A stretch of 64,000 nt of DNA. It comes from Leptolinea tardivitalis (lineage in GTDB: Bacteria; Chloroflexota; Anaerolineae; Anaerolineales; Anaerolineaceae). The notes beneath the pieces are model-generated. The model made no database searches, was not told the DNA's origin, and saw nothing but the letters and a program-made list of their open reading frames with translations. The position numbers and the translations under genes are program-made. The stretch is taken from assembly GCF_001050275.1 (NCBI RefSeq), contig NZ_BBYA01000009.1:248001-312000 (forward strand). The letters run 5' to 3'. Shown here piece by piece: positions 1,392 to 20,265 of the stretch. Positions within the stretch are counted from its first letter, which is position 1; every line of letters begins with the position of its first letter.

Positions 1392-3905
1392 TCAGGCAGT
1401 AATTTTGCCTGCCGCCGCCAGTTCACGGCCGGCATGGAAGGCCGCCGTATTGGCCGCCCAGACTGCTGGTTTGGCATTGACCTGTTTGAGTGCCTGCACC
1501 CACATTGTTTCGGGGAAGGCATCAAATGGCGCCACAACACTGAGTACTCCCATCATCACCACATTGGCGATTCGGCCGGTCTGGTCGCCCAGTTCCAGTG
1601 CCTTGCCCAGCACATCCACTTTGATGGTGCGGTATCCTTTCAGGTTTTCCATGATCTGGTCATCAGATGGGTATTGTTCTTTCGGGAATCCCAGAGGCAA
1701 AATGCAGGTATCCGCCAGCAGTACCGTACCACCCGGCTTTAACAGGGATAGAAAATCAGGCCGCAGCACTTCACTCTTTTCCATGACGATCAGGCAGTCA
1801 GTGGTTCCGGGCAGGAACAGCGGGCTGGATGTTTTTCCGCAGGCGAAGGTGCTGATCACCGGTCCGCCCATTTGAGCCATACCGTGGGTTTCACCTTTAA
1901 TAATATTCTCTTTGTCGTAACCTGCCAGAAATGCCAGTTGTGTGAGTACATGCCCGAAGAAAAGATTTCCCTGACCGCCCACCCCGCGGATGGAGAGGGA
2001 TAGCCGTTCCGGTCGTTTAATGCCAGTGATATCAAACGGAGCGATGTCTGAGGGTACCGGATACTCGGGCATAGATTTTCGTTTAAGGTCTTTCAGGTCA
2101 ATCGGATGCAGCACGTGAGTCGGGCAGGTTTGCACACAGGCGGGGGTCATCCCACCGCAGCCGGTGCACAGATTGTTGACTACCGGAACTCCATCTGGAC
2201 CGGCTTCGATACCGGGGCAGATCAGGCAGGCGCCGCATTTCTTGCAGACCTCGGGATCCACGTAAACCCGCTGTGAACTGGGTTTGGCCATCTGGATGCA
2301 GCTTCCGTTTTGCACCACGATGGTGGTATAGGTGCCTTTGGCGGCTTCTTCAAGCGCGGTCTTTAGGGCAGTGCGCAGATTGTTCTTTTCATAGGCACCC
2401 ACTTCAATCACATTCGCTCCATGTGCCCGCAGACTGGCAGGCAGGCTGAAGCGCATGGGTTCTCCGGCGAGATTAGTCGGAGATGTTGGGGTGGGTTGAG
2501 CGCCGGTCATTCCCGTCCAGGAATTATCCAGAATAACCTTCACACCGGGCACATTGCGGTAAACAGCATTGCGGGTTCCGGCCATGCCGGTATGACATTC
2601 GGTGCTGTCTCCCACTACAGTGATACAGCGGGATGCTTTTTCAGGAAGATCCATCACATATCCAATACGCTGACCTTCGCTGGCTCCCATGGCCAGTCCC
2701 GTATCCATGGCGTTCATGAAATACAGCAGACCGTTGCAGCCGATATCGCCAAAGACCACTTCGACCAGTTTCTTCTTCTTTAAAAGCGCCATCTCGTTGG
2801 CAAACAACCGGTACGGGCAGCCGGCGCAAAGTGATGGGGGGCGTGAGATAGGCTGGGTTTCCACCTTCTTATGAGTGACCGGTTTGCCCAATTTCTCGGC
2901 GATCAGGGCTGGAGACCATTCGGTGAGGGTGCTGTATTCTTCTTTCCCAATGGGATGAAGTCCGGCTTGCTGCATGGCCTCCTGGATAAATCGGTAGCCG
3001 TCTTCTATCACATAAACGTCGCCGTCAATAGAGTTGTAGAACTCCGTAATCAGGTCCATGGGCAGTGGATTGGTGAAGGCCAGTGAAAGGATATCAAAAT
3101 CTAACCCGAGCGCGTTCTTGACCTCATGCACATACATGTCGCTTATACCGGCGGTGATCACGCCCATTTTTCCAGAACCTTTTTCCCAGTAATTTAGCGG
3201 GCTGCTTTCTACCATAGCCTGCAAGGCGGGCATGCGTTCGTGCATCGAGATATCAAAATTCTTGCGGGCAAAACCGGGGAACACATTGAATTCTTTGAGG
3301 CTCTCCGGCATAACCACAGGATCACGGCGAACCGGTTCCATCAGGTGGATCAAGCCTTCGCTGTGGCACAGGTTGCCATTGGGGAAAATGACCACCTGTG
3401 TTTTATATTGACGTCCGATTTCCACGGCAATGGCAGCCGATTCGTGTAATTCCTGATGGTTGCGCGGTTCAAAAACCGGAACAAAGCATGATTTGAACAG
3501 GTAGCGTGGATCAATGACATGCTGTGTGGAACTCGGTGTGAAATCACTGGCAATGTAATACACCAACGCACCACGTTCTTTGGCAAAGGGGGCTCCACTG
3601 GTAAAAATATCGCCAGCCTGAAACAGACCGGGAATCTTCATGGTGACCACGCAGTCGCGTCCGGCCAGGGAATGCCCCATGCCAACAGCCGAAGCTACTG
3701 CTTCATTGACAGACCAGTTCACATGGATCATGTCTTGTACCTGTGACAGACCCCGGTCAATCACCTCGCTGCTGGGCGTGCCCGGATAACCGTCAGCCGC
3801 ATGAACACCGCCGCGTACACAACCGACGGCAAAGGCGATATTCCCCTGAAGGATTTCGGTTTTTCCAGCGGGAGCTTCACACAATGCACGTATTGATTCA
3901 CCCAT
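1392..3905 (-). CDS. iorAB: Indolepyruvate:ferredoxin oxidoreductase, alpha and beta subunits fused
   Basis: The 837-residue product matches IorA followed by IorB in one chain; usually these are two proteins of about 600 and 200 residues. An N-terminal pyruvate-oxidoreductase-like domain (GYPGTPSSEV) is followed by a thiamine-diphosphate domain (GDIGCNG, then GDST..HTGMAG), a cysteine-rich ferredoxin domain at about residues 570-625 (CKKCGACLICPG, then CTGCGG and CVQTCP), and a C-terminal gamma-type domain (RGVGGQG, GETHGMAQMGG). The family oxidatively decarboxylates aryl pyruvates to aryl-acetyl-CoA and reduces ferredoxin. The ATG at 3905 is preferred over the upstream one because AGGAGT stands 7 bases before it. 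The following ADP-forming ligase would turn the CoA ester into ATP. Confidence 0.93.
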   Translation of the reverse strand: MGESIRALCEAPAGKTEILQGNIAFAVGCVRGGVHAADGYPGTPSSEVIDRGLSQVQDMIHVNWSVNEAVASAVGMGHSLAGRDCVVTMKIPGLFQAGDIFTSGAPFAKERGALVYYIASDFTPSSTQHVIDPRYLFKSCFVPVFEPRNHQELHESAAIAVEIGRQYKTQVVIFPNGNLCHSEGLIHLMEPVRRDPVVMPESLKEFNVFPGFARKNFDISMHERMPALQAMVESSPLNYWEKGSGKMGVITAGISDMYVHEVKNALGLDFDILSLAFTNPLPMDLITEFYNSIDGDVYVIEDGYRFIQEAMQQAGLHPIGKEEYSTLTEWSPALIAEKLGKPVTHKKVETQPISRPPSLCAGCPYRLFANEMALLKKKKLVEVVFGDIGCNGLLYFMNAMDTGLAMGASEGQRIGYVMDLPEKASRCITVVGDSTECHTGMAGTRNAVYRNVPGVKVILDNSWTGMTGAQPTPTSPTNLAGEPMRFSLPASLRAHGANVIEVGAYEKNNLRTALKTALEEAAKGTYTTIVVQNGSCIQMAKPSSQRVYVDPEVCKKCGACLICPGIEAGPDGVPVVNNLCTGCGGMTPACVQTCPTHVLHPIDLKDLKRKSMPEYPVPSDIAPFDITGIKRPERLSLSIRGVGGQGNLFFGHVLTQLAFLAGYDKENIIKGETHGMAQMGGPVISTFACGKTSSPLFLPGTTDCLIVMEKSEVLRPDFLSLLKPGGTVLLADTCILPLGFPKEQYPSDDQIMENLKGYRTIKVDVLGKALELGDQTGRIANVVMMGVLSVVAPFDAFPETMWVQALKQVNAKPAVWAANTAAFHAGRELAAAGKITA

Positions 3906-4047
3906 TCGTTTCACTCCTGATTGGTTGATGAAAAGTAAAAATAGTTTGAAAAGAAAAACCCGGAATCGCGGCAATGCCCGGCCCCAGGTTGACTTTTAAG
4001 AAATCTTCAAAAAAACTTGATGTCATTTTCCTTGAAATGTGGACAGT

Positions 4048-5196
4048 CTATTCAAACATACCGGCCACACCTCCACCTGGTTGAACAGGGATTTTTTTCA
4101 TGCGAAGGAATTCTTCTACTGAGAAGAGGAATTGCAGCATGTATTCACGTTCGGCTGCTTTACCCAGATGACCCACCCGGATAACTTTGCCAGTCAATTC
4201 ACCGAGACCGCCGCCAATGGCAATTTGATGTTCATCCATCAGCCATTTGGTCAATTCATCAAGGGTGAATTCCGGCCGGGCTTTCACCGCTGTGGCTATG
4301 GGAGAGGCATAAGCCTCAGGAACAAGCATCTCAAAGCCGAGATTGGTCAAACCTTTGCGCATGGACCGGCTGGCAGTGGCATAGCGGGCATAATGTGCTT
4401 CTACACCACGCTCAAATATTTTCTTGATGGCTGTTCGAGCAGCCAGAATAACATTGGTTGGAAGGGTAACCGGTGATGGATGCCAGGCGCCCCATTCCTG
4501 GATGTAATGCCGCCAGAGTTTGAGGTCAAGGTACCAGCATCCCGGTGCATCATGGCTGTCTATAACGGTCCAGGCATGCGGACTGACACTGATGAAACCA
4601 ATCCCCGGTGCAGCTTCAATGCATTTATTGGCGCCGCATACGCAGATATCAATTCCCCAATCATCCACCGGAATATCCACTCCAGCCAGCGACGAGACCG
4701 TATCCACAATGGTCACAAGACCAGCCTTCCGGGCAACAGCCATCAAATCTTTCAAAGGATTTAGGACAGTCGTGGATGTCTCATGATGGACCATGGCGAA
4801 GGCTACTGTATCGGGGTTTTCCTTTATTAATGATTCCAGAAGGTTGGGATCAAGCGGCTTCCCCCAGGCTGCTTTAAAGGGGATGATTTCGAGACGATGG
4901 GCCTGTGAAATTTCGACCAGGCGGTCTCCAAAGAAGCCATTTGTTCCAATGATGATTTTCTTACCCGGGGCTACAACACTGCCGATGGCCATATCGAGCA
5001 CAGCCGAAGCCGGCCCGGGAACCACATACATGTCATTTTTCGTCTGGAAGAGTCTGTGAAGCAGCTCATCCATCTCAACATGCACGGGCATCCAATCAGG
5101 ACCATAGTGGCGCATAACAGGGAGGCTTAGAGCATCCAGAACATCGTCATCAACATCACCGGGACCGGGAGTGAAAAGCTTAATATGTTGGGTCAT
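4048..5196 (-). CDS. Class V pyridoxal-phosphate aminotransferase (alanine-glyoxylate / serine-pyruvate type)
   Basis: The 382-residue protein has the class V fold-type I layout: the N-terminal FTPGPG motif, a PGPASA phosphate-binding loop, VDTVSSLAG with the cofactor-contacting Asp, and the Schiff-base Lys in CGANKCIEAAPG. It ends with a small domain and the conserved RVGHLG. The family moves amino groups between small amino acids and 2-oxo acids such as pyruvate or glyoxylate; the substrate here is not readable. The ATG at 5196 has AAGGA 7 bases upstream; a longer frame from 5256 lacks such a site. Its promoter region carries two palindromes (5253-5268 and 5279-5308). It is co-oriented with the IorAB/ligase pair and could feed it 2-oxo acids, but that link is inferred. 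Confidence 0.88.
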   Translation of the reverse strand: MTQHIKLFTPGPGDVDDDVLDALSLPVMRHYGPDWMPVHVEMDELLHRLFQTKNDMYVVPGPASAVLDMAIGSVVAPGKKIIIGTNGFFGDRLVEISQAHRLEIIPFKAAWGKPLDPNLLESLIKENPDTVAFAMVHHETSTTVLNPLKDLMAVARKAGLVTIVDTVSSLAGVDIPVDDWGIDICVCGANKCIEAAPGIGFISVSPHAWTVIDSHDAPGCWYLDLKLWRHYIQEWGAWHPSPVTLPTNVILAARTAIKKIFERGVEAHYARYATASRSMRKGLTNLGFEMLVPEAYASPIATAVKARPEFTLDELTKWLMDEHQIAIGGGLGELTGKVIRVGHLGKAAEREYMLQFLFSVEEFLRMKKIPVQPGGGVAGMFE

Positions 5197-5252
5197 GGGG
5201 AATTCCTTCAGGATTGATTTACAGGTAAAACAAAAAGAGGAAAATTGTTTCC

Positions 5253-5268
5253 TCATTAATATTAATGA
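5253..5268. promoter_or_regulatory. Perfect 16-bp palindrome upstream of the aminotransferase gene
   Basis: TCATTAATATTAATGA is an uninterrupted palindrome 57 bp upstream of the aminotransferase ATG, inside its presumed promoter. It may bind a dimeric regulator or simply be an AT-rich promoter element; nothing in the window identifies the binder. Confidence 0.4.
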
Positions 5269-5278
5269 ATCAAAACGG

Positions 5279-5308
5279 GCAATAATGTAGTTATGACTAC
5301 ATTATTGC
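5279..5308. promoter_or_regulatory. Perfect 13-bp inverted repeat with Crp-type geometry (candidate operator)
   Basis: Two 13-bp arms (5279-5291 and 5296-5308) are separated by 4 bases. The core reads TGTAG-N6-CTACA, the 5-6-5 layout of Crp-family sites (E. coli Crp: TGTGA-N6-TCACA), and it also fits GTA-N8-TAC. It lies between the end of a Crp/Fnr-family regulator gene and the start of the aminotransferase gene on the same strand. An operator for that regulator is the best guess. A terminator is less likely because no T run follows on the minus strand. Confidence 0.6.
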
Positions 5309-5332
5309 AGATTAAACTGTTTTTTATACAAA

Positions 5333-6034
5333 TTATTCAGGCTGTTCCACCAACCGGATCAGTTCGGGAAAGTTGGTGATTTCCAGCTTGTTTTTGGAAA
5401 ATTGACGGATAATGCCCATCTCTTTTAATTGACTGACCGCTTTGGTCACCGTCACCCGGTGAACACCCATCAGGCGGGCAATGTCATCCTGGGTCATTCC
5501 CGGTTGAAAGCTGACAGATTTCTGTCCGCTTTCGATATGAATCTCTTTAAAGCGCACCAGATAGACGATCATTTTACAGACTCGGGTGAACTGATTGCTG
5601 ACGAGTTCATCGGTCAGTAATTCAGTAAACATGCGGGCCTTGTACGAAACTGTCTGTACTAGTTCGAGCATAAGGGCAGGGTACTGGACGGCAATGACCT
5701 GTTCAATGGTTTCTTTCTTGAAATAATATAAGACACTGTCTGACCGGGTTTTCGCGCTGGCTTCTTCCGCGTCACCCCCGATGAAACAGGATACTTCACC
5801 GAAAATGCAGCCCCGGCCTACAATGAACAGCACCTTCTCAGGGCCATGAACGGTATGCAGGTTAATTTCAATGGAACCGTCCACAATATAGTACAGGCCA
5901 TTGATGAGCTCTTCTGTAAAAAAGATACGGCTGCCTTTGGGGAAGGCCTCGCGCACTCCAAGATGAAGTACCTTTTCCCAGGATGGGCACAGATTTTCGA
6001 AAATGGGGAGTTGGTAGAACATAATTGTTTCCAT
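5333..6034 (-). CDS. Crp/Fnr-family transcriptional regulator
   Basis: The 233-residue protein has an N-terminal cyclic-nucleotide-binding-type beta-barrel (GLYYIVDGSIEINL at about residues 46-59, GCIFGEVS near 75-82), a long dimerisation helix, and a C-terminal winged helix-turn-helix with QDDIARLMGVHRVTVTKAVSQL. No N-terminal cysteine cluster is present, so it is not an oxygen-sensing Fnr with an iron-sulfur centre. The effector is unknown. ATG at 6022 is an alternative start four codons in. It is followed on the same strand by a Crp-geometry palindrome and the aminotransferase gene, which makes it a likely local regulator of the amino-acid fermentation genes (inference). Confidence 0.9.
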   Translation of the reverse strand: METIMFYQLPIFENLCPSWEKVLHLGVREAFPKGSRIFFTEELINGLYYIVDGSIEINLHTVHGPEKVLFIVGRGCIFGEVSCFIGGDAEEASAKTRSDSVLYYFKKETIEQVIAVQYPALMLELVQTVSYKARMFTELLTDELVSNQFTRVCKMIVYLVRFKEIHIESGQKSVSFQPGMTQDDIARLMGVHRVTVTKAVSQLKEMGIIRQFSKNKLEITNFPELIRLVEQPE

Positions 6035-6464
6035 TATCGTACAAACCGGAGAAATGCAACAACCCCCTTTCCTGCCTTCCTTTTATATAACGAAAAGGAG
6101 TTGAGTGATTACATTGCGCCCGAATATGGATAAACTGAAGGTGGGAGCCCACGCTTTTGAGTAATAAAAGTGAACATTGAAAAACAAGAATGATCTTTTG
6201 CAGGTAAGAAGCAGCGGTGTGGATTATGGTACGCGATTGAGGCTGATCTCCGCCTGCTTCTTCTGCACTTTGCCGAATATGACGGTGACTTTGTTTAAAA
6301 TCATTATTCTTCTGGCAGTGGAAACCTTTCATCTCACAAGAGGTGAAGGAAGGAAACTTTCAGGAATAGGAGTCTGATAAACCACTGGCAAAATGGCACA
6401 TCTGAGCCTAAGATGGTAATGATACAATGCGAACCCGGATGATGAACTCTGCAGGCAGGTTGAT
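6035..6464. other. Intergenic region between divergent genes
   Basis: This 430-bp stretch lies between the Crp-type regulator and the FAD dehydrogenase, which point away from each other, so it should hold both promoters. No convincing gene, repeat or RNA structure was seen. Confidence 0.4.
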
Positions 6465-7886
6465 ATGACAGATACCTCGTATGATGTGATTATTGTCGGT
6501 GCAGGACCCAGCGGAATCTTTACCGCTTATGAGATTCGTGAACACAATCCCTCGTTGAAAATCCTCTTAATTGAAAAAGGCCATTCCATCGAAAAACGCA
6601 AATGCCCCAAACGCAAGACAGGCATTTGTGCCAACTGCAATCCCTGTAATATCACCACAGGTTTTTCCGGCGGGGGTAGTTTCAGTGATGGCAAACTATC
6701 CATCAATGAAGACGGCGAAATTGGCGGAGATCTGGTTCAATATATTGGACTTGAGAAATTCCGGAAAGTGCTGCACTACACGGATGCCCTGTATGTAGGT
6801 TTTGGGGCAGATCCGACTGTTTACGGTGTGGAAAAATCACCAATGGTGGATGCCATACATCGGAATGCTGCCCAGGCGCACATGAAATTAATCGATTCCG
6901 GTGTACGCCATATGGGGACGGAGAAAGCATATGAAATTTACTCGCGCATCCAGAAGGAACTGGAAAAACGCAATATCGAAATGCTGTTCGATTCCCCGGT
7001 GAAAGATTTCATCATCGATGAAAAGCCCGACGGTGAAAAATGGGTAAGGGGAGTGATCACTTTTGATGATCGCCAATACACGGCAGATCATGTGGTGGTG
7101 GGTATTGGCCGCGAAGGCAGCGAATGGTTGAATGGCATTTGCCGGGAATATGGTATTCATTCAAAAGTTGGCCCGGTGGATATCGGCTGCCGCATCGAAA
7201 CGGATGCTGCCATCACGGAGAGGATTGACAATACTCTGTATGAAGCCAAACTGGTGTATTACACCCCAACTTTTGAAGACAGAGTGCGTACCTTTTGCTG
7301 GAATCCACGCGGTGAGGTGGCGGAAGAAAAGTATGGCGAGACGCTGGCAACCGTCAACGGGCATAGTTACAAAGATGAAGCCTATAAAACGGGCAATACC
7401 AATTTTGCCCTGCTGGTCTCCAAGAACTTTACTCAGCCGTTTAAAACGCCCATTGAATACGGGCGTTATATTGCCGAAATGGGGAATATGCTTTCAGGTA
7501 ACAAGGTGATGGTGCAGCGATACGGCGATCTTAAACGCGGCCGCCGGACTACTGTGGAACGCCTGGCAAAGAACATCATTCGGCCGACCTTGAAAGATGC
7601 CGTACCCGGAGATTTAAGCCTGGTGCTGCCATACCGTATCATGGTGGATATCATTGAGACCATAGAGGGATTGGATAAGATCATGCCCGGCCTGTCGGGT
7701 GATAATACCCTGATTTATGGAGTGGAAGTCAAGTTTTATTCAAACCGGATTGTGGTGGATAAGCATTTCCAGACCAACATTCATAACCTGTATGTGTTGG
7801 GTGACGGTGCCGGTCTGACACGCGGCCTTATGCAGGCCAGTATGAACGGTGTTTGTATGGGAAGGATCCTGACAGGCACCTGGTAA
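6465..7886 (+). CDS. FAD-dependent dehydrogenase (COG2509-type)
   Basis: The 473-residue protein opens with a dinucleotide-binding motif, VIIVGAGPSGIFTAYE (residues 8-23), and closes with a second FAD contact, YVLGDGAGLTRG. Near residues 48-62 lies a cysteine-rich stretch (CPKRKTGICANCNPC) followed by GFSGGGSFSDGKL, both typical of a widespread but uncharacterised family of flavoprotein dehydrogenases related to the glutathione-reductase/lycopene-cyclase fold. Substrate and partner are unknown. It appears to be a single-gene unit; the next gene (msrA) converges on it with 1 bp between stop codons. Length is close to the family norm. Confidence 0.85.
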   Translation: MTDTSYDVIIVGAGPSGIFTAYEIREHNPSLKILLIEKGHSIEKRKCPKRKTGICANCNPCNITTGFSGGGSFSDGKLSINEDGEIGGDLVQYIGLEKFRKVLHYTDALYVGFGADPTVYGVEKSPMVDAIHRNAAQAHMKLIDSGVRHMGTEKAYEIYSRIQKELEKRNIEMLFDSPVKDFIIDEKPDGEKWVRGVITFDDRQYTADHVVVGIGREGSEWLNGICREYGIHSKVGPVDIGCRIETDAAITERIDNTLYEAKLVYYTPTFEDRVRTFCWNPRGEVAEEKYGETLATVNGHSYKDEAYKTGNTNFALLVSKNFTQPFKTPIEYGRYIAEMGNMLSGNKVMVQRYGDLKRGRRTTVERLAKNIIRPTLKDAVPGDLSLVLPYRIMVDIIETIEGLDKIMPGLSGDNTLIYGVEVKFYSNRIVVDKHFQTNIHNLYVLGDGAGLTRGLMQASMNGVCMGRILTGTW

Positions 7887-10505: not shown

Positions 10506-11825
10506 ATGATTCAGGCAGGTATGCTTGTGAACACTCATAAAATGGAAAGTCTGGATAAACTCAGGTTTTATGAATTGACTCTGCAGGAGCGCGGTAGTTA
10601 CCTGCAAAAACAAACCGGATTGACAGATGCCGAGATGGACGCCCTGTGCGGTCTGGCCGGACTGGCACCGGCTTCCGCCGATAAAATGGTGGAAAATGCC
10701 ATCGGTATTTACAGCCTGCCGATGGGCATTGCCCAGAATTTTGTAGTGAACGGCCGCAAGGTCTGGGTCCCCATGGTGGTCGAAGAGCCTTCTGTGGTGG
10801 CCGGGGCATCTTTTATGGCGCGGCTGGCGAGGGCGGGCGGCGGGTTCTTCGCCTCGGCTGATGAACCTTGCATGATCGGGCAGATGCAAATTCTTGGTTT
10901 GCCTGACCTGGAAAAAGCCCGTAAATTGCTGCTTGACCACGGTGCTGAATTGCTGGATGAGGCTGCCCGAATTGACCCGGTCTTGCAGGAACTGGGCGGC
11001 GGCCCCCGCGAGATGGAAATCAGGATTGTGGAAGATAGTCCCATTGGTCCTTTTATGGTGCTGCACATCATTCTGGATGTCCGTGACGCCATGGGGGCGA
11101 ATGCCGTCAACACTGCCTGTGAACGGCTGGCTCCCAGGGTGGAAGCCCTGACCGGCGGACGCGTGCACCTGCGCATTCTGTCAAACCTGGCTGACCGGCG
11201 CCTTGCCCGTGCCAGAGTGACCATCCCCGTAAGCGAACTGGCATTCGACGGATACAGCGGCGAACAGGTGCGTGACGGAATTATCGAAGCCTGGGCATTT
11301 GCGGCAGTGGATCCATATCGTGCAGCAACCCATAACAAGGGCATCATGAACGGTGTGGATGCCGTGGTCATTGCCACCGGCAATGACTGGCGCGCCGTGG
11401 AGGCCGGGGCGCATGCTTTTGCCGCCCGCAGCGGTCGCTATACCAGCCTGTCTACCTGGGGACAGGATAAGGACGGTTCCCTGGTGGGTTCACTTGAAAT
11501 GCCGATGGCTGTAGGGATTGTGGGCGGGGCAACCCGGGTTCACCCCGGCGCGAAAGCGGCGGTCAAACTGCTGGGTGTTCAAACCGCCCGTGAACTGGCG
11601 GAGATTATTGTTTCGGTGGGTCTGGCACAGAATATGGCAGCTCTGCGCGCCCTGGCGACAGAAGGTATCCAGCGCGGACACATGACCCTGCATGCCCGTC
11701 AGGTGGCGGCGGCTGCCGGAGCGGAGGGTGCCATGATCGACCGGGTGGCAGACCGCATGGTTCAGGAAAAAACCATCCGCATTGATCGTGCGCAGGAAAT
11801 ATTAAAGGAAATAACAGGCAGGTAG
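10506..11825 (+). CDS. mvaA: Hydroxymethylglutaryl-CoA reductase, class II
   Basis: The 439-residue enzyme aligns along its length with class II HMG-CoA reductases. It carries ENAIG (catalytic Glu63), VVEEPSVVAGASFMA, THNKG (Lys278), GNDWRAVEAGAHA (Asp294) and RGHMTLHA (His392/396, the C-terminal catalytic His region). All active-site residues are present. It interconverts HMG-CoA and mevalonate with NAD(P)H. Class II enzymes are often labelled degradative, but the HMG-CoA synthase downstream suggests a biosynthetic role here. Homologues align from Met13 (10542), so the first 12 residues may not be translated; no start has a strong Shine-Dalgarno site. It heads the mevalonate cluster. Confidence 0.95.
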   Translation: MIQAGMLVNTHKMESLDKLRFYELTLQERGSYLQKQTGLTDAEMDALCGLAGLAPASADKMVENAIGIYSLPMGIAQNFVVNGRKVWVPMVVEEPSVVAGASFMARLARAGGGFFASADEPCMIGQMQILGLPDLEKARKLLLDHGAELLDEAARIDPVLQELGGGPREMEIRIVEDSPIGPFMVLHIILDVRDAMGANAVNTACERLAPRVEALTGGRVHLRILSNLADRRLARARVTIPVSELAFDGYSGEQVRDGIIEAWAFAAVDPYRAATHNKGIMNGVDAVVIATGNDWRAVEAGAHAFAARSGRYTSLSTWGQDKDGSLVGSLEMPMAVGIVGGATRVHPGAKAAVKLLGVQTARELAEIIVSVGLAQNMAALRALATEGIQRGHMTLHARQVAAAAGAEGAMIDRVADRMVQEKTIRIDRAQEILKEITGR

Positions 11826-11912
11826 CTGCTCAACAGCCATAAATCCCTGAAAAAGTTGTTTCGTTCCACTCACGGTGGAGACGAATTTGTAGTCAAAAAC
11901 ATCGGAGACCTA

Positions 11913-12992
11913 ATGACCGAAGAACATGTGCATAAAAATGGATTACTGAAACCCAACCGACCGGTGGGCATCATCGGATACGGCGCCTATGTGCCGCGTT
12001 ACCGCCTGCCGGGAGCGGAAGTGGCCCGCATCTGGACGGGCGGTACGGGCGGATCACCCGTAAAAGAAAAATCTGTACCCGGGCTGGATGAAGATGTAAT
12101 CACCATGTCTATTGAAGCTGCCCGAAACGCCCTGGCGCGAGCCGGGATTGACCCGTTTGAATTGCGCGCTGTGTGGGTGGGGTCCGAATCACACCCGTAT
12201 GCCGTCAAACCGACCGGCACCATCGTAGCCGAAGCCATCGGTGCCACACCGGCTGTTTCAGCGGCCGATTGGGAATTTGCCTGCAAGGCTGGAACCGAAG
12301 CCTTTACCGCTGCCATGGGTCTGGTGGGCTCGAAGATGGCCAACTATGCCCTGGCCATCGGCATGGATACAGCACAGGGACGGCCGGGTGATGCCCTGGA
12401 ATATACGGCGGCCGCCGGAGGAGCCGCGTATATCCTCGGTCCGGCGGAAGAAGCCCTGGCGGTGGTCGATTCGGCGTATTCCTATGTTTCTGATACGCCC
12501 GATTTCTTCCGGCGGGCGGAACAGAAATATCCGGAGCACGGTCAGCGGTTTACCGGTGAACCGGCGTACTTTACGCACATCACATCGGCTGCTCGCGCTA
12601 TGCTCGATCTGACTGGCGCTGCACCGGAGGATTTCACCTTTGCCGTGTTTCACCAACCCAATGCCAAATTTCCCCAGCGGGCAGCCAGCCTGCTGGGATT
12701 CAAGCCCGAACAGATTACTGCTGGACTGCTCTCCCCGGTGATCGGCAATACATATGCCGGAGCCGCTCTGATTGGTCTGAGTGCGGTACTGGATATTGCC
12801 AAGCCCGGCGACCGGATACTGGTTGTCTCGTTTGGTTCCGGCGCCGGATCAGATGCCTTTGATATTCGGGTGACAGATAAGATCACGGAACGGCAAAAGA
12901 AGGCACCCACAACACAGGATTACATTGCCCGCCGTACACCCATTGACTACGGTACGTACGTCCGCATTCGCGGCAATCTGGCATTGAAGTAG
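11913..12992 (+). CDS. Hydroxymethylglutaryl-CoA synthase, archaeal type
   Basis: The 359-residue protein has the thiolase-fold residues of HMG-CoA synthase: Glu92 in GSES, nucleophile Cys124 in FACKAGTEA, and His247 in [22 protein letters not shown] and [11 protein letters not shown] lie near the C-terminus. It condenses acetyl-CoA with acetoacetyl-CoA. The archaeal-type subfamily is known to form a complex with a thiolase and a DUF35 protein, and both partners follow here. ATG at 11913 is chosen because GGAG precedes it by 5 bases; a longer frame starts at 11856 without such a site. The thiolase-like gene begins 11 bp downstream. Confidence 0.95.
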
Positions 12993-13003: not shown

Positions 13004-14164
13004 ATGAGAGACGTAGTCATTGCCGGGATCGGACAGATTCCTGTGGGTGAACACTGGGACCTCAGCCTGCGGACGATGGCGGCACGAGCCATGCTGGCTG
13101 CCATTAAAGATGGCGGCGGAATGAAACCGCAGGCCATGTATATTGGAAATTTCCTCAGCCCGGTGCTTTCGCACCAGGAAAATCTGGGTGCTCTGTTAAC
13201 GGACAACGCCGGTCTGACCGGTATCGAAGCCTTCACTGTGGAAGCGGCCGGTGCATCTGGCGGAGCCGCTTTGCGAGTGGGCGTCAATGCGGTTGCCTCG
13301 GGATTTATTGATTGTGCTCTGGTGCTGGGTGTGGAAAAAATTACCGACATGGTCGGTTCAGAAGTAGAAGCGGCTGTTGCACAATCTTCTGATTATGATT
13401 ATGAAGCCATGACGGGTTTGAGTTCCGCCGGACAGGCTGCCCTGTTAATGCAGCGTTACCTCTATGAATACAATCCTCCCCGCGAGGCCTTTGGCGAGTT
13501 TGCCCTGATCGCTCACGCCAACGGAGCAAATAATCCCAATGCCTTTTTCCGTAAAGCCATCAGCCGTGAAGCGTATGCCTCGGCGGGTATGGTCAGTGAT
13601 CCCGTCAATATGTTTGACATGGGCCCTTACGCAGACGGAGCCGCCGCTGTTCTATTAACCGCCCGCGATACGGCGCCGAAAGATCTGCCCCATCCTTTAG
13701 TGCGGGTGAGCGGGTCCAGTGTGGTCATCGATACGCTGGCCTTGCATGACCGGCCCAACCCTCTGGCGTTTGATGCCGCCTGCCAGTCAGTGGAACGTGC
13801 GTGCAGTCAGGCTGGGATAATGCCGGGTGATGTTGACCTTTTCGAAGTGTGTGATGCTTTCAGTATCTATGCCCTGCTATCGTTGGAAGCTGCCGGTCTT
13901 GCCCGGCACGGCGAAGGCTGGAAGATGGCTGTCAATGGTGAGCTTTCCATCAACGGGAAACTGCCCATTCTGACAATGGGCGGCTGCAAAGCCCGGGGTA
14001 ATCCCCTGGGTGCTGTGGGTGTGTACCAGGCTGTGGAAGCCGTCCAGCAACTCCGCGGACAGGCAGGTAGAAATCAGGTTAAAGATGCCCGCCGGGCGCT
14101 CATCCAGTCACTGGGCGGCCCCGCCTCAACGGCGGCTGCTCACATTCTGGAACGCCTGGATTAA
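13004..14164 (+). CDS. Thiolase-like protein, archaeal acetoacetyl-CoA thiolase type, lacking the catalytic residues
   Basis: The 386-residue protein is full length and aligns with the archaeal/SCP2-type thiolase that partners HMG-CoA synthase and DUF35 (start RDVVIAGIGQIPVGEHW; LSLEAAGL and VGVYQ late). The three catalytic positions are changed. The nucleophile Cys of the EAACASGG motif is Gly83 (EAAGASGG), the His of EVHDAF is Cys283 (EVCDAF), and the His of GHP is Asn333 (GNPLGA). I checked each codon in the DNA: GGT, TGT and AAT. Everything around them is well kept, so it is not an ordinary pseudogene. It may be a scaffold that holds DUF35 on HMG-CoA synthase, or it may have another chemistry, as in Ltp2-type retro-aldolases. 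Confidence 0.88.
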   Translation: MRDVVIAGIGQIPVGEHWDLSLRTMAARAMLAAIKDGGGMKPQAMYIGNFLSPVLSHQENLGALLTDNAGLTGIEAFTVEAAGASGGAALRVGVNAVASGFIDCALVLGVEKITDMVGSEVEAAVAQSSDYDYEAMTGLSSAGQAALLMQRYLYEYNPPREAFGEFALIAHANGANNPNAFFRKAISREAYASAGMVSDPVNMFDMGPYADGAAAVLLTARDTAPKDLPHPLVRVSGSSVVIDTLALHDRPNPLAFDAACQSVERACSQAGIMPGDVDLFEVCDAFSIYALLSLEAAGLARHGEGWKMAVNGELSINGKLPILTMGGCKARGNPLGAVGVYQAVEAVQQLRGQAGRNQVKDARRALIQSLGGPASTAAAHILERLD

Positions 14165-14192
14165 ACCCGACGGCTGAGCTTGTGGTGAATCC

Positions 14193-14380
14193 GATGGCTG
14201 AGCCTGTCCGATGGCTGAGCCTGTCGAAGCCCGATGGCCCTGCCCTCGACAGGCTCGGGCAGTGGAACCATCCCGGTGGCTGAACCAGACCGGAGGCTGA
14301 GCTTGTCGAAGCCCGAAAGCCTTGCCCTCGACAGGCTCGGACACCGGAACCATCCCGGTGGCTGAGCCTGTCGAAGCCCG
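14193..14380. repeat. 82-bp imperfect tandem repeat with palindromic units
   Basis: Two copies of an 82-bp unit (starting at 14213 and 14295, the second slightly incomplete) follow the thiolase-like gene. An extra partial copy lies upstream. Each unit contains a GAGCCTGTCGAAGCCC-like element and its inverse CCCTCGACAGGCTCGG, so the RNA or single strand can fold into strong hairpins. Similar short GC-rich dispersed repeats occur in intergenic regions of many bacteria. It separates the thiolase-like and DUF35 genes, which normally lie side by side. Confidence 0.8.
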
Positions 14381-14459
14381 GCAATTTGATAGTATTTGAT
14401 AGCCCTGCCCCTATACACTAGGCTTACATATTTGGCTGTAAAAGAAAGAAGATGTGATT

Positions 14460-14858
14460 ATGGAAATACCTCGCCATTGGAGATTGAAAAAACAACGTTA
14501 CGGACTGGTCGGTGAAGTCTGCCCGCACTGTGACGCAAAAATCTTCCCGCCGCGTGACGTATGTCCGCATTGCGGTGGTGAAGCTAAAACCGCGTTCAAC
14601 TTCAGCGGCCGTGGCGAGGTGTACTCTTACACCGTAATGCATGATGCCCCTGCCGGTTTTGACCAGAATACTCCCTATGCTGTGGCGTTGGTCAAACTGG
14701 AAGAAGGTCCCGTGGTCACAGCACAGTTGACTGACCTTGGCGAAGAGCAGCCGCGCATTGGCATGCCAGTCGAGATGGTCACCCGCAAAATCCGCGAAGA
14801 TGCCAACGAACGCGGTATGTTGATCTACGGGTATAAGTTCAGACCGGTATTAAGATAA
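14460..14858 (+). CDS. DUF35 OB-fold protein with N-terminal zinc ribbon
   Basis: The 132-residue protein has a rubredoxin-like zinc ribbon (CPHC at about residues 21-24 and CPHCGG at 37-42) followed by an OB-fold domain (YSYTVMHDAPAGF, VALVKLEEGP). In archaea this protein bridges thiolase and HMG-CoA synthase and helps form the shared CoA-binding site; in actinobacterial steroid catabolism DUF35 proteins partner thiolase-like aldolases. It is the last gene of the mevalonate cluster and is followed by a strong terminator. A GTG at 14454 is an alternative start. A badly decayed second copy lies at 19852-20265. Confidence 0.9.
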   Translation: MEIPRHWRLKKQRYGLVGEVCPHCDAKIFPPRDVCPHCGGEAKTAFNFSGRGEVYSYTVMHDAPAGFDQNTPYAVALVKLEEGPVVTAQLTDLGEEQPRIGMPVEMVTRKIREDANERGMLIYGYKFRPVLR

Positions 14859-16526: not shown

Positions 16527-19500
16527 GTGATCCATAAGCGCATCGCCCAATTATTAACAGCATGGATGATCGTTGTTCTTATCTGGCCGGTTGGAGTTAC
16601 CGGTAGGGTATTCGCAGAAGACACCTGGGTTAACATTACTTCGGCTGCCGAGTTCAATAACATCCGTTCAAATTTGACAGCCAATTACCGCCTGATGGCC
16701 GATATCGATCTGACCGGTTACCCCAATTGGACGCCCATAGGAACTGACGCTTCCCGTTTTACCGGACAATTGGATGGCAACGGGAAGATCATTAGCAACT
16801 TGAGCCTGACCAACACCTCTACCAATAACCAGGGGTTGTTTGGAGTAATCGGTACGGCTGGTAAATTAACGAACGTGGTCGTGGAACACGCCAATCTTTC
16901 CGCCGGGGTTAATACCGGTATCCTGGCTGGAACCAATTACGGGCAGATCAGTGCAAGTTCGGCCAGTGGCAACATCTCCGGGTATGACAATGTCGGCGGT
17001 CTGGTGGGATCCAACTACGGGCAAATTTCCAACTCTTTTACCCAATCTCAGGTATCCGGTAAAAACAATGTGGGCGGTTTGGTCGGTTACAACAACGGCA
17101 CAGTGCAAACTTCTTACGCCGCATCTGTGGTTTCAATGTCAGTTTTAAACAACTATTTGCAGTTTGATGGTGTAGATGATTACATTGAGATTCCTCACCA
17201 GTCTTACTACATGACCAACAGTTTTACTCTAGAAGCCTGGTTCCAATGGGATAAAGCAGGTACTGATGATACCCAATTTATCACAGGCAAAGGGTTTGAG
17301 CAGTTTGAAATTCACACGGGGGGCGGTTCGGGTGTAAACGGCATTCGTTTTATTCCAGTTTACCGGCCAAAAACTCTCTACGCCGATGGACGAGCTTACC
17401 AGGATGTACGTAACGTAATCCAGCCAGGCTGGTTTCATGTAGCTGCTGTATGGGATTACTCGACCCAAACTGCACGTGTCTATATAAATGGCCAACCACA
17501 AAATATCTACCAGGTGGGAAATAATGTTGGCACCATCGCTCCGGTACCGCTGAAAAATCCTGGTGTCAATCCATACGCAGATAATCTCAGCAATTTTACA
17601 ATTGGTATTCGGTCAGATATGACTTTCCCCTTCAAAGGTAAAATCAGCGATGTGCGTTTTTGGAACACAGTACGTACCAGTGAAGAAATTAATGCGGATA
17701 AAAACAAACAGCTTACCGGCAGCGAATCCGGTTTGATGGGCTACTGGAAATTGAATGAACCTTCTGGAACGGTCGCAACAGACAGTACCAGCAACCATAA
17801 TAATGGAACCGTTATGGGTGGTGCCGTCCGAGTGCAGGAGAGTGGCATTAATTATGGTGGACTGGTGGGTCTTAATGCAAGCAGCGTAACTGGCTCCTAC
17901 TACGACTCGGCTATTTCAGGACAAACGGATGAAGGCAAAGGCGTTCCATCAACAACCAGCGCCATGAAATCCATCAGCACCTTTAGCGGCTGGGACTTTA
18001 CCTCCATCTGGAAAATCAACGAAGGTAATTCATACCCTTACTTCAACCGGTTTTCCGTAAAGTATTCCGCCGATCCCAATGGCACCATTGACGGCTATGC
18101 ATCGCAGATTGTAAGTCCTGGTGGAATAGGCAGCTCTGTAACGGCAGTAGCCAATAAAGATTACAAATTTGAAAAATGGAGCGACAACCTCACCACGGCT
18201 GCCCGTCAGGACACGAATGTAAGCGGCGATTTGAGTGTTACTGCCAGCTTTTTGGAAGCCGTTCCCCCTGATACTCTTTCCATTGTTGTTGCCGATACTT
18301 CTCTGGTTGTTGGCGAAACCAGCCCGGTGATTTTCACTTTTTCTGAAGCTGTTACAGATCTGACTACGGCCGATCTGACGGTGGATAACGGCAGCCTGAG
18401 TGAACCCACATCCTCAGATGGAGGTCTCACCTGGATTGCCACTCTCACCCCCGCCGCGAATGTGAGTGCTGCAACCAATATCATCACCCTGGATAACAGC
18501 GGCGTGCAGGACCTGGCCGGGAATCCCGGCATCGGTACCACCGATTCAAATAATTATGCCGTCGACACTACCCTCTTGAGTGTATCCGTGGAACAGGCAA
18601 AGGATCAAGCTGATCCAACAAACACAGGTCCCATCCTGTTTAACGCCACATTCAGCAAGCCGGTCAGTGGTTTTACAAAAGAGGATATTTCGTTTGATGG
18701 CAGTACCGTTTCAGGCAGTCTGGTTGCTGCGTTGAGCGAAATCGCGCCCAATGATGGCACAACATACGAGATTTCAATCACTGGTATGACTGGCAAAGGA
18801 TTAGTTGTGGTGTCCATCCCTGCTAACAAGGTTATGGACGCATTGGGCAACCAGAATTCAGCCAGTACAGGCAAGGATAATACTGTAACCTTCGACACCA
18901 CATCCCCACAAGTGACCATTCCCAAACTTCAGGCAAATTATAGCGGCCTCAGCCCGATAAGTTTTGGGGTGAATTTCAATAAACCGATGAACAATCCCAT
19001 TGGTGACACTGATACCGATGATGTGACCAATCCGGATAACTACCTGCTGGTGAAAACCGGACCAAATCAAATCTTTGACACACTATCCTGCGTTGCAGGA
19101 TTGGCTTCTGACGATATACAATTTGCCTTCAACAGTGTGGATTACAACGATACATCCAACTCTTCTATCATCCACCTGTCAAACCGATTGCCAATAGGAT
19201 CGTACCGTTTGTTTATTTGTGGAACCACCTCAATTGTTGACCTGGCCGGTAATCCTATTAATGGGGGTAAAGACGCAGTTTTTAACTTTACCGTGTACCC
19301 GGAAGCTGGATCCTTGCCCGAAACCGGTTTTCCTCAGGAGAAAATTACAATTCTGCCCGTTCAACCGGCGGATATGACCTACGCGAATAGCGGATTAACG
19401 CTTTCCATTCCCAGTCTGGGTGTGCAGACGGCAATTGTGGGTGTGCCGCGCAGTGAGCAAAGCTGGGACGTATCCTGGCTGGGCAATCGCGTCGGTTATC

Positions 19501-19820
19501 TTTACGGCTCGGCTTATCCCACTTTGCCGGGTAACACTGTTCTTACCGGGCACACGTGGAATGCTGATAATACCCCGGGCATTTTTGCCAACATAAAAAA
19601 TTTGAGCCATGGTGATATTCTGAAGATATTCGCTTATGGACAAACCTATACCTTTGAAGTGCGTGAAAATAGTCTGGTCGAATCTGATAATGTTGATGTG
19701 GCAATGAAGCACGAGGAATTGTCCTGGGTGACTCTGCTGACCTGCGAATCATACGATGCAGGGACAGGAGATTATGCTTACAGGCGCATGGTCAGAGCTG
19801 TATTGATCAGCGTGGAATAA
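16527..19820 (+). CDS. Secreted multidomain adhesin fused to a C-terminal sortase, with an internal LPETG motif
   Basis: The 1,097-residue protein starts (GTG, GGGAG upstream) with a signal peptide of about 30 residues ending VFA. Next come GLUG-type repeats (VGGLVG.NYGQIS) to about residue 205, a LamG/concanavalin-like domain (about 210-435), and a resumed GLUG-like stretch (GGLVGLNASSVTGSYYDS). An InlB-type beta-repeat (about 512-580) follows, then three bacterial Ig-like domains (about 585-925). LPETG is at residues 930-934. A sortase domain fills the rest, with His1009 (LTGHTW), Cys1073 (TLLTCES) and Arg1086/1087 in sortase spacing. The sortase should cleave LPXTG-like motifs and attach proteins to the wall; its likely substrate motif lies in its own linker. 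No transmembrane helix flanks the sortase, so the signal peptide may serve as anchor. Confidence 0.9.
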   Translation: MIHKRIAQLLTAWMIVVLIWPVGVTGRVFAEDTWVNITSAAEFNNIRSNLTANYRLMADIDLTGYPNWTPIGTDASRFTGQLDGNGKIISNLSLTNTSTNNQGLFGVIGTAGKLTNVVVEHANLSAGVNTGILAGTNYGQISASSASGNISGYDNVGGLVGSNYGQISNSFTQSQVSGKNNVGGLVGYNNGTVQTSYAASVVSMSVLNNYLQFDGVDDYIEIPHQSYYMTNSFTLEAWFQWDKAGTDDTQFITGKGFEQFEIHTGGGSGVNGIRFIPVYRPKTLYADGRAYQDVRNVIQPGWFHVAAVWDYSTQTARVYINGQPQNIYQVGNNVGTIAPVPLKNPGVNPYADNLSNFTIGIRSDMTFPFKGKISDVRFWNTVRTSEEINADKNKQLTGSESGLMGYWKLNEPSGTVATDSTSNHNNGTVMGGAVRVQESGINYGGLVGLNASSVTGSYYDSAISGQTDEGKGVPSTTSAMKSISTFSGWDFTSIWKINEGNSYPYFNRFSVKYSADPNGTIDGYASQIVSPGGIGSSVTAVANKDYKFEKWSDNLTTAARQDTNVSGDLSVTASFLEAVPPDTLSIVVADTSLVVGETSPVIFTFSEAVTDLTTADLTVDNGSLSEPTSSDGGLTWIATLTPAANVSAATNIITLDNSGVQDLAGNPGIGTTDSNNYAVDTTLLSVSVEQAKDQADPTNTGPILFNATFSKPVSGFTKEDISFDGSTVSGSLVAALSEIAPNDGTTYEISITGMTGKGLVVVSIPANKVMDALGNQNSASTGKDNTVTFDTTSPQVTIPKLQANYSGLSPISFGVNFNKPMNNPIGDTDTDDVTNPDNYLLVKTGPNQIFDTLSCVAGLASDDIQFAFNSVDYNDTSNSSIIHLSNRLPIGSYRLFICGTTSIVDLAGNPINGGKDAVFNFTVYPEAGSLPETGFPQEKITILPVQPADMTYANSGLTLSIPSLGVQTAIVGVPRSEQSWDVSWLGNRVGYLYGSAYPTLPGNTVLTGHTWNADNTPGIFANIKNLSHGDILKIFAYGQTYTFEVRENSLVESDNVDVAMKHEELSWVTLLTCESYDAGTGDYAYRRMVRAVLISVE

Positions 19821-19851: not shown

Positions 19852-20265
19852 GTGATTATTCAGAAACCTCGCCGTTTGCGATTGAAAGAAACAACGTTAC
19901 GAACCGGTCGGTGAAGTCTGTCTGCACAGTGATATAGAAATCTCTCGGCTGTGTAATGTCTGTCCATATTATGGCGGCCAAGCTGAAACTGTCTTAAACT
20001 TCAACGGCCGGAGTGAGGTGTGCTCTTACACCATAATGCCTGATACCCTTGCTGGTTTTAACCGGAACACTGCCGAGCTGTGGGGTTGGTCAAACTGGAA
20101 GAAAATTCTGTATTCACCGCACAATTGACCGACCTGGTCGAAAAACAGCCGCGCATCGGCCTGCCTGTAGAGATGGGCACTCGAAAAATCCGCGAAGATG
20201 CCATTTAACATGGTATGTTGATGTACGGGTATACCTTCAGGCCTGTGATGGCTGGGATGAAATAA
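19852..20265 (+). pseudogene. Decayed second copy of the DUF35 gene
   Basis: The DNA from GTGATTATT at 19852 onward aligns base by base with the intact DUF35 gene at 14454-14858, including the upstream AGAAGATGTGATTAT context. Shared pieces include AACAACGTTACG, CGGTCGGTGAAGTCTG, CTCTTACACC and AAATCCGCGAAGATGCCA. It has lost its ATG, the zinc-ribbon cysteines (one CPHC now reads through CHSD with a TAG following), and the reading frame, with several in-frame stops including a TAA near 20206. It sits directly after the adhesin-sortase gene. It looks like an old duplication of the cluster end that has drifted without selection. Confidence 0.85.

Follow-up and report, generated by a model that had tools for sequence, protein, structure and literature searches.

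A proposed non-catalytic thiolase subunit encoded in the HMG-CoA synthase cluster of Leptolinea tardivitalis

The HMG-CoA synthase gene cluster

The window, a stretch of 64,000 nucleotides from the genome of Leptolinea tardivitalis, carries on one strand a cluster of four genes which encode HMG-CoA reductase, HMG-CoA synthase, a thiolase homologue, and a DUF35 protein. HMG-CoA reductase (10506..11825, +; 439 aa) is recognized by PF00368 (E 2.8e-109) and, above its cut-off, by TIGR00532. The archaeal-type HMG-CoA synthase (11856..12992, +) possesses the Glu/Cys/His triad, scores above the cut-offs of TIGR00748 and NF003274, and has 6esq_I as closest solved relative (E 3.5e-125); its open reading frame opens with TTG, and the true start probably lies further in, homology beginning at residue 36-37. 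The gene of the thiolase homologue (13004..14164, +) starts with ATG 11 bases past the HMG-CoA synthase stop and encodes a full-length protein of 386 aa. The DUF35 protein (14454..14858, +), composed of a zinc ribbon and an OB fold (PF12172, PF01796), has 6esq_E as closest solved relative (E 4.1e-32) and is expected to form the bridge between the thiolase fold and HMG-CoA synthase. In the gap between the two latter genes (14165-14440), a GGCTGAGCCTGT-type unit is repeated in both direct and inverted orientation; among these repeats is an 82-base unit present twice with 84% identity. About 5 kb downstream of the cluster, past an open reading frame at 16527-19820, lies a second DUF35 gene (19886-20250, +), which is broken: it contains a stop, and its two pieces, which stand in different frames, are 58% and 76% identical to the cluster copy. 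A second piece of a thiolase or HMG-CoA synthase gene was not found within the window by tblastn (E ≤ 1).

The genome itself (G000; 3.69 Mb, 99% complete) also encodes mevalonate kinase and a mevalonate-type decarboxylase. No match to IspH or DXR, two markers of the MEP pathway, was obtained in it with searches that were each positive in 10 of 14 control genomes, and mevalonate is therefore probably the sole isoprenoid route of this organism.

In archaea, thiolase, HMG-CoA synthase, and a DUF35 protein form a complex, the primary paper on which reportedly appeared in PNAS in 2018. According to passages of a later article, the thiolase of this complex makes acetoacetyl-CoA and the acetoacetyl group moves between the active sites without release (PMC12329534), and passages of another place CoA at an interface formed by all three proteins (PMC6392133). 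The cluster in the window resembles the Methanothermococcus complex (6esq) in having the same genes side by side and an intact HMG-CoA synthase triad; moreover, 6esq is the closest solved relative of both HMG-CoA synthase and the DUF35 protein by sequence and provides the best structure match and the second-best sequence match of the thiolase homologue. The difference resides in the thiolase subunit, which in the window lacks the catalytic residues needed for channelling, that is, the Cys and both His.

Loss of the catalytic residues

Direct reading and alignment with relatives place Gly83 (EAAGASGG; codon GGT, 13250..13252, +) at the position of the nucleophilic Cys, Cys283 (EVCDAF; codon TGT, 13850..13852, +) at that of the HDAF His, and Asn333 (GNP; codon AAT, 14000..14002, +) at that of the GHP His. 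The initial annotation had reported these three replacements in an otherwise full-length protein, and the alignment bears it out, residue numbers included. The closest solved thiolases, 7yvy and 6esq, both have Cys/His/His at the three positions, whereas the Cys of CxSG and the His residues of HDxF and GHP, which characterize a catalytic acetoacetyl-CoA thiolase, are all replaced in the thiolase homologue. Its homology to the archaeal-type thiolases extends over the full length (PF22691, E 9e-44, above cut-off), and NF004720 matches residues 1-384 with E 5.9e-110 and 367.7 bits, which is below the cut-off of 420. The AlphaFold2 model has a mean pLDDT of 95.8, and its best structural match is 6esq_A (Z 63.0, rmsd 1.3 Å over 384 residues). 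Given the established chemistry of thiolases, the loss of all three residues argues that the protein is catalytically inactive, and with the Cys and both His gone, channelling from a thiolase step of its own is not expected.

Distribution of Cys-less copies and the residues that replace the triad

The loss was followed in 142 HMG-CoA synthase-linked thiolases of the phylum, which represent a fetched subset of all matches in genomes picked by kinship. The Cys is absent in 86 of them: in all 29 cluster copies of the family to which L. tardivitalis belongs (27 of which lack all three residues), in 22 of 25 from the rest of the order, in 19 of 72 from the rest of the class, and in all 16 from the rest of the phylum. 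The phylum search gave a match of any kind (E ≤ 1e-70) in 33 of 151 genomes, so this type of cluster is by no means general among these bacteria. At least 80 further loci came from a pattern-seeded scan of named genomes and were left out of these prevalence counts because the seeding favours a degenerate GHP region; they are included in the column entropies given below, where they bias position 333, and in the count of HMG-CoA synthase triads at loci with a Cys-less thiolase. Glu/Cys/His is present in 160 of 164 such loci, and the remaining four have a gap at one or two triad positions and no substitution.

Two of the three genus-mates (G003, G001) have the identical Gly/Cys/Asn; no cluster thiolase was found in the third (G002), whose HMG-CoA synthase gene runs into the contig end. 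A private defect of the L. tardivitalis genome, with close relatives still carrying Cys/His/His, had been named as the finding that would overturn the initial annotation; it is rejected by the 29 of 29 family copies without Cys. Gly/Cys/Asn as such, whose fixation in a clade was also in question, is not constant across the family: all its cluster copies read have lost the Cys, but the substitutes at each of the three positions vary widely. Across all 86 Cys-less copies, the Cys position is occupied by Gly (53), Asp (15), Glu (12), Ser (2), Gln (2), Ala (1), or Asn (1), and the HDAF His position by nine different residues. In the 19 Cys-less copies from the rest of the class, the HDAF His is kept in 18 and the GHP His in 6, which suggests that the HDAF His goes last; three copies of the class sample, however, keep the Cys and lack the GHP His, so the residues need not disappear in one set order.

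In the copies from other classes, 14 of 16 (L239-L247, L249-L251, L272, L273) have Gly, then Ser/Thr/Cys, then Asp at the three positions, mostly with the motifs ELxDPHG and KARGD among those displayed, a pattern conserved enough for a possible lineage-specific role. Among 48 copies without HMG-CoA synthase in the fetched stretch, 40 have Cys/His/His; two of the other eight (L043, L149) fall among the Cys-less cluster copies in the tree, one is distant, and five (L069, L128, L136, L139, L144) form a thiolase-like clade unlinked to HMG-CoA synthase, in which Thr replaces the Cys and both His are kept, with the motif RAATATGA in four of the five.

These data bear on the suggestion of the initial annotation that the protein might have acquired a new chemistry, acting as an aldolase, a decarboxylase, or another enzyme by means of different residues of the same pocket. 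Thiolase folds without the Cys can indeed be working enzymes: according to passages of PMC12329534, the steroid aldolases Ltp2 and Sal (PDB 6OK1, 9MYR) combine a thiolase fold with a DUF35 protein and do not perform thiolase chemistry. Tyr stands at the HDAF His position in 4 of the 86 Cys-less copies, and the set repeated in the other classes likewise points in this direction. However, the aldolases use the catalytic Tyr of YDxF/Y and, as far as these passages go, have a hydratase as neighbour, whereas the window has Cys in EVCDAF and HMG-CoA synthase next to it. The aldolase reading is thus disfavoured for the window by the missing Tyr motif and the variability of the positions. Close relatives differ at the three positions, the varied replacements argue against one common new chemistry, and no adjacent gene points to another pathway, so that a new activity of any kind is unlikely and this branch of the suggestion has gained little. 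The archaeal thiolase-like protein ST0096 of Sulfolobus tokodaii (PDB 4YZO; Z 54.6) is similar in having Ser at the Cys position but differs in that both His are kept (ELHD, GHP).

Selection and column conservation

The dN/dS of the thiolase homologue is 0.066-0.100 (three pairs within the genus, with synonymous sites near saturation), which is near the 0.055-0.078 that HMG-CoA synthase gave in these three genomes (three pairs, likewise near saturation); a rough value of 0.028 was obtained for the DUF35 protein from one pair in the genus. The intact archaeal-type paralogue of the thiolase gave 0.025 and 0.028 in two of six pairs, the other four being saturated. By this rough comparison, the Cys-less copy is constrained, but less tightly than the intact paralogue. 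The test for selection proposed in the initial annotation thus speaks for a gene that is not decaying, and neutral decay is rejected on the low dN/dS. A decaying gene or an error of sequencing or assembly, for which the lost residues and nothing further would speak, is highly improbable also in view of the Cys-less state of every family cluster copy read, the intact reading frame, and the gene order kept in relatives.

Within the protein, the active-site columns are relaxed. The three catalytic columns have entropy ranks of 145, 102, and 125 of 382 in the Cys-less group, which corresponds to ordinary variability, whereas intact cluster copies show little or no variation there. Mean column entropy is 1.50 in the Cys-less group, the larger and broader set, versus 1.05 in intact cluster copies, and 59 of 386 columns are at least 95% conserved versus 95 in the intact copies. 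The strongest local loosening lies around HDAF, 3% of stretches of equal length being equally loose. A regulatory subunit, whose silent pocket would bind acetyl-CoA, acetoacetyl-CoA, or another ligand and thereby tune HMG-CoA synthase, would agree with the full fold and the strong selection, but its active-site columns would hardly be expected to be relaxed instead of fixed, and we consider this role distinctly unlikely. A special conservation of the helix expected to contact the DUF35 protein was not seen; helix 141-156 is loosened above average, and this counts against a simple argument from interface conservation.

Other thiolases as sources of acetoacetyl-CoA

The initial annotation had called for a search for a second, complete thiolase, and L. 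tardivitalis proved to have two candidates. One, located at C15:103089-104234 of G000, is an unlinked, intact archaeal-type paralogue with Cys/His/His, 45% identical to the thiolase homologue. The other is a classical thiolase whose CASG, NEAF, and GHP motifs are intact. The best NCBIfam matches of the latter are 3-oxoadipyl-CoA thiolase models, below their cut-offs, and its role in acetoacetyl-CoA formation is therefore putative.

Classical thiolases were searched for in 147 genomes (79 + 68), 133 of which have a read cluster copy, Cys-less in 81 and with Cys in 52; G040, whose cluster holds a Cys-less copy next to an intact one, and three genomes with Cys/His/Asn were counted as intact. Another thiolase was scored as absent if there was neither a PF00108 match at E ≤ 1e-40 nor a second archaeal-type match at E ≤ 1e-20 or 1e-40; weaker or distant thiolases fall outside the count. 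By this measure, 80 of the 81 genomes with a Cys-less copy have another thiolase, a classical one in 74 and a fetched intact paralogue in 6, and the sole exception, G035, is 80% complete. Among the 52 genomes with a Cys copy, 10 have neither thiolase, and all 10 keep Cys/His/His; classical thiolases are frequent here as well (42 of 52). The association of a Cys-less copy with another thiolase has a Fisher p of 3.6e-4, which ignores ancestry; the tree offers too small a number of independent pairs for a corrected test.

The intact paralogue might also act inside the complex, making acetoacetyl-CoA together with the Cys-less subunit as a mixed thiolase. Ketosynthases pair with a chain-length factor in an analogous manner. 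Such a partnership would be consistent with the cluster of G040, in which a Cys-less and an intact copy flank the DUF35 gene, with the paralogue-type second match that accompanies the Cys-less copy in nearly all genomes of the family (24 unlinked paralogues were read, none of them with a lost catalytic residue), and with G037 and G051, where a copy of the intact-paralogue clade stands alone in the cluster; these two and the intact copy of G040 are the three intact exceptions in the order. Against it stand several genomes, such as G123, G112, G164, G141, G114, and G094, in which the Cys-less copy is the sole archaeal-type thiolase matched at E ≤ 1e-40 and, conversely, paralogue-type matches in G011, G027, and G053, where HMG-CoA synthase gave no match at E ≤ 1e-15; the paralogue of G027 (L070), the one read among these three, is intact. 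A mixed thiolase is accordingly given a low probability.

Evolutionary history of the loss

In a careful tree of 64 rows, which included two archaeal outgroup sequences and from which three active-site stretches were excluded, intact copies are basal, and a single nested clade (support 99/94) unites 20 of the 29 Cys-less cluster rows, with nine outside. The clade holds the rows from Anaerolineales, part of those from the remainder of the class, and four of the five rows from other classes. Six changes of the Cys state are needed on this tree and five on a quick tree of 151 rows, which include two stand-alone Cys-less groups; on the quick tree, many forks of which are weak, the other-class rows lie outside the main Cys-less clade. 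A topology that unites all 29 Cys-less cluster rows passes the AU test (p-AU 0.234), so several losses are a property of the best tree, and thiolase catalysis was perhaps lost repeatedly. At L050 of G040 (2763-6549), genes for HMG-CoA synthase, a Cys-less thiolase, the DUF35 protein, and an intact thiolase follow one another, a possible intermediate.

A probable pseudo-thiolase as structural and CoA-site subunit

The probable explanation for these observations is that the thiolase homologue is a pseudoenzyme, retained for its part in the structure and in the CoA site, while acetoacetyl-CoA comes from other enzymes. It would descend from an acetoacetyl-CoA thiolase that belonged to an archaeal-type thiolase/HMG-CoA synthase/DUF35 complex. 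Having lost thiolase catalysis, it would still assemble with HMG-CoA synthase and the DUF35 protein, supporting the structure and supplying one wall of the CoA site that the three share. If the thiolase subunit provides a wall of this site, its catalysis, once redundant, can fall silent, but the subunit cannot be dropped; its retention would follow from the continuing need of the complex for partner and wall. Acetoacetyl-CoA would be made by separate thiolases, in L. tardivitalis the archaeal-type paralogue and the classical enzyme, and would reach HMG-CoA synthase from solution, not by channelling. The scaffold proposed as one option in the initial annotation fits the lineage-wide loss, the strong purifying selection, the intact HMG-CoA synthase, and the presence of other thiolases. 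It is also conceivable, at a clearly lower probability, that the thiolase half serves as an entry port, capturing acetoacetyl-CoA in the shared CoA site and handing it to HMG-CoA synthase.

A precedent for a three-part assembly in which one member lacks catalytic residues is the Friedel-Crafts acylase PhlABC (PpATase; PDB 5M3K), whose three subunits are all required for activity according to passages of PMC6392133. There, as these passages describe it, the inactive member is the HMG-CoA-synthase-like PhlA, whose Cys is replaced by Gly115, and the active one is the thiolase-like PhlC; the thiolase homologue of the window would thus be the mirror image of PhlA. Among the papers listed by searches of the open-licence PMC literature, none describes thiolases without the Cys in the HMG-CoA synthase clusters of Chloroflexota.

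HMG-CoA synthase genes without a thiolase neighbour would weaken the scaffold reading and were sought in 26 genomes, chosen because no cluster thiolase had been read in them or because their matches were weak or incomplete. Eleven of these have an HMG-CoA synthase match. That of G106, with 27% identity, is only distantly related; the contigs of G143 and G144 end after part of a thiolase gene next to the match; in G036, there is no thiolase in the 591 bases remaining after the gene; and in the other seven, the HMG-CoA synthase gene itself reaches the contig end. There was thus no clean counter-example among the 11 matches, a comparison of weak power.

Implications

Proteins of this kind could easily be misnamed acetyl-CoA acetyltransferase, and annotations should be read with this in mind. 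Living lineages hold coexisting states in which only the Cys, the Cys and one His, or all three residues are lost, so the steps from enzyme to scaffold could be assayed directly. If the entry-port variant were true, the channelling complex of Chloroflexota would have been uncoupled, perhaps repeatedly, with docking in place of channelling. A thiolase half that is silent and nevertheless under strong selection would represent a natural separation of catalysis from assembly in a probably essential pathway.
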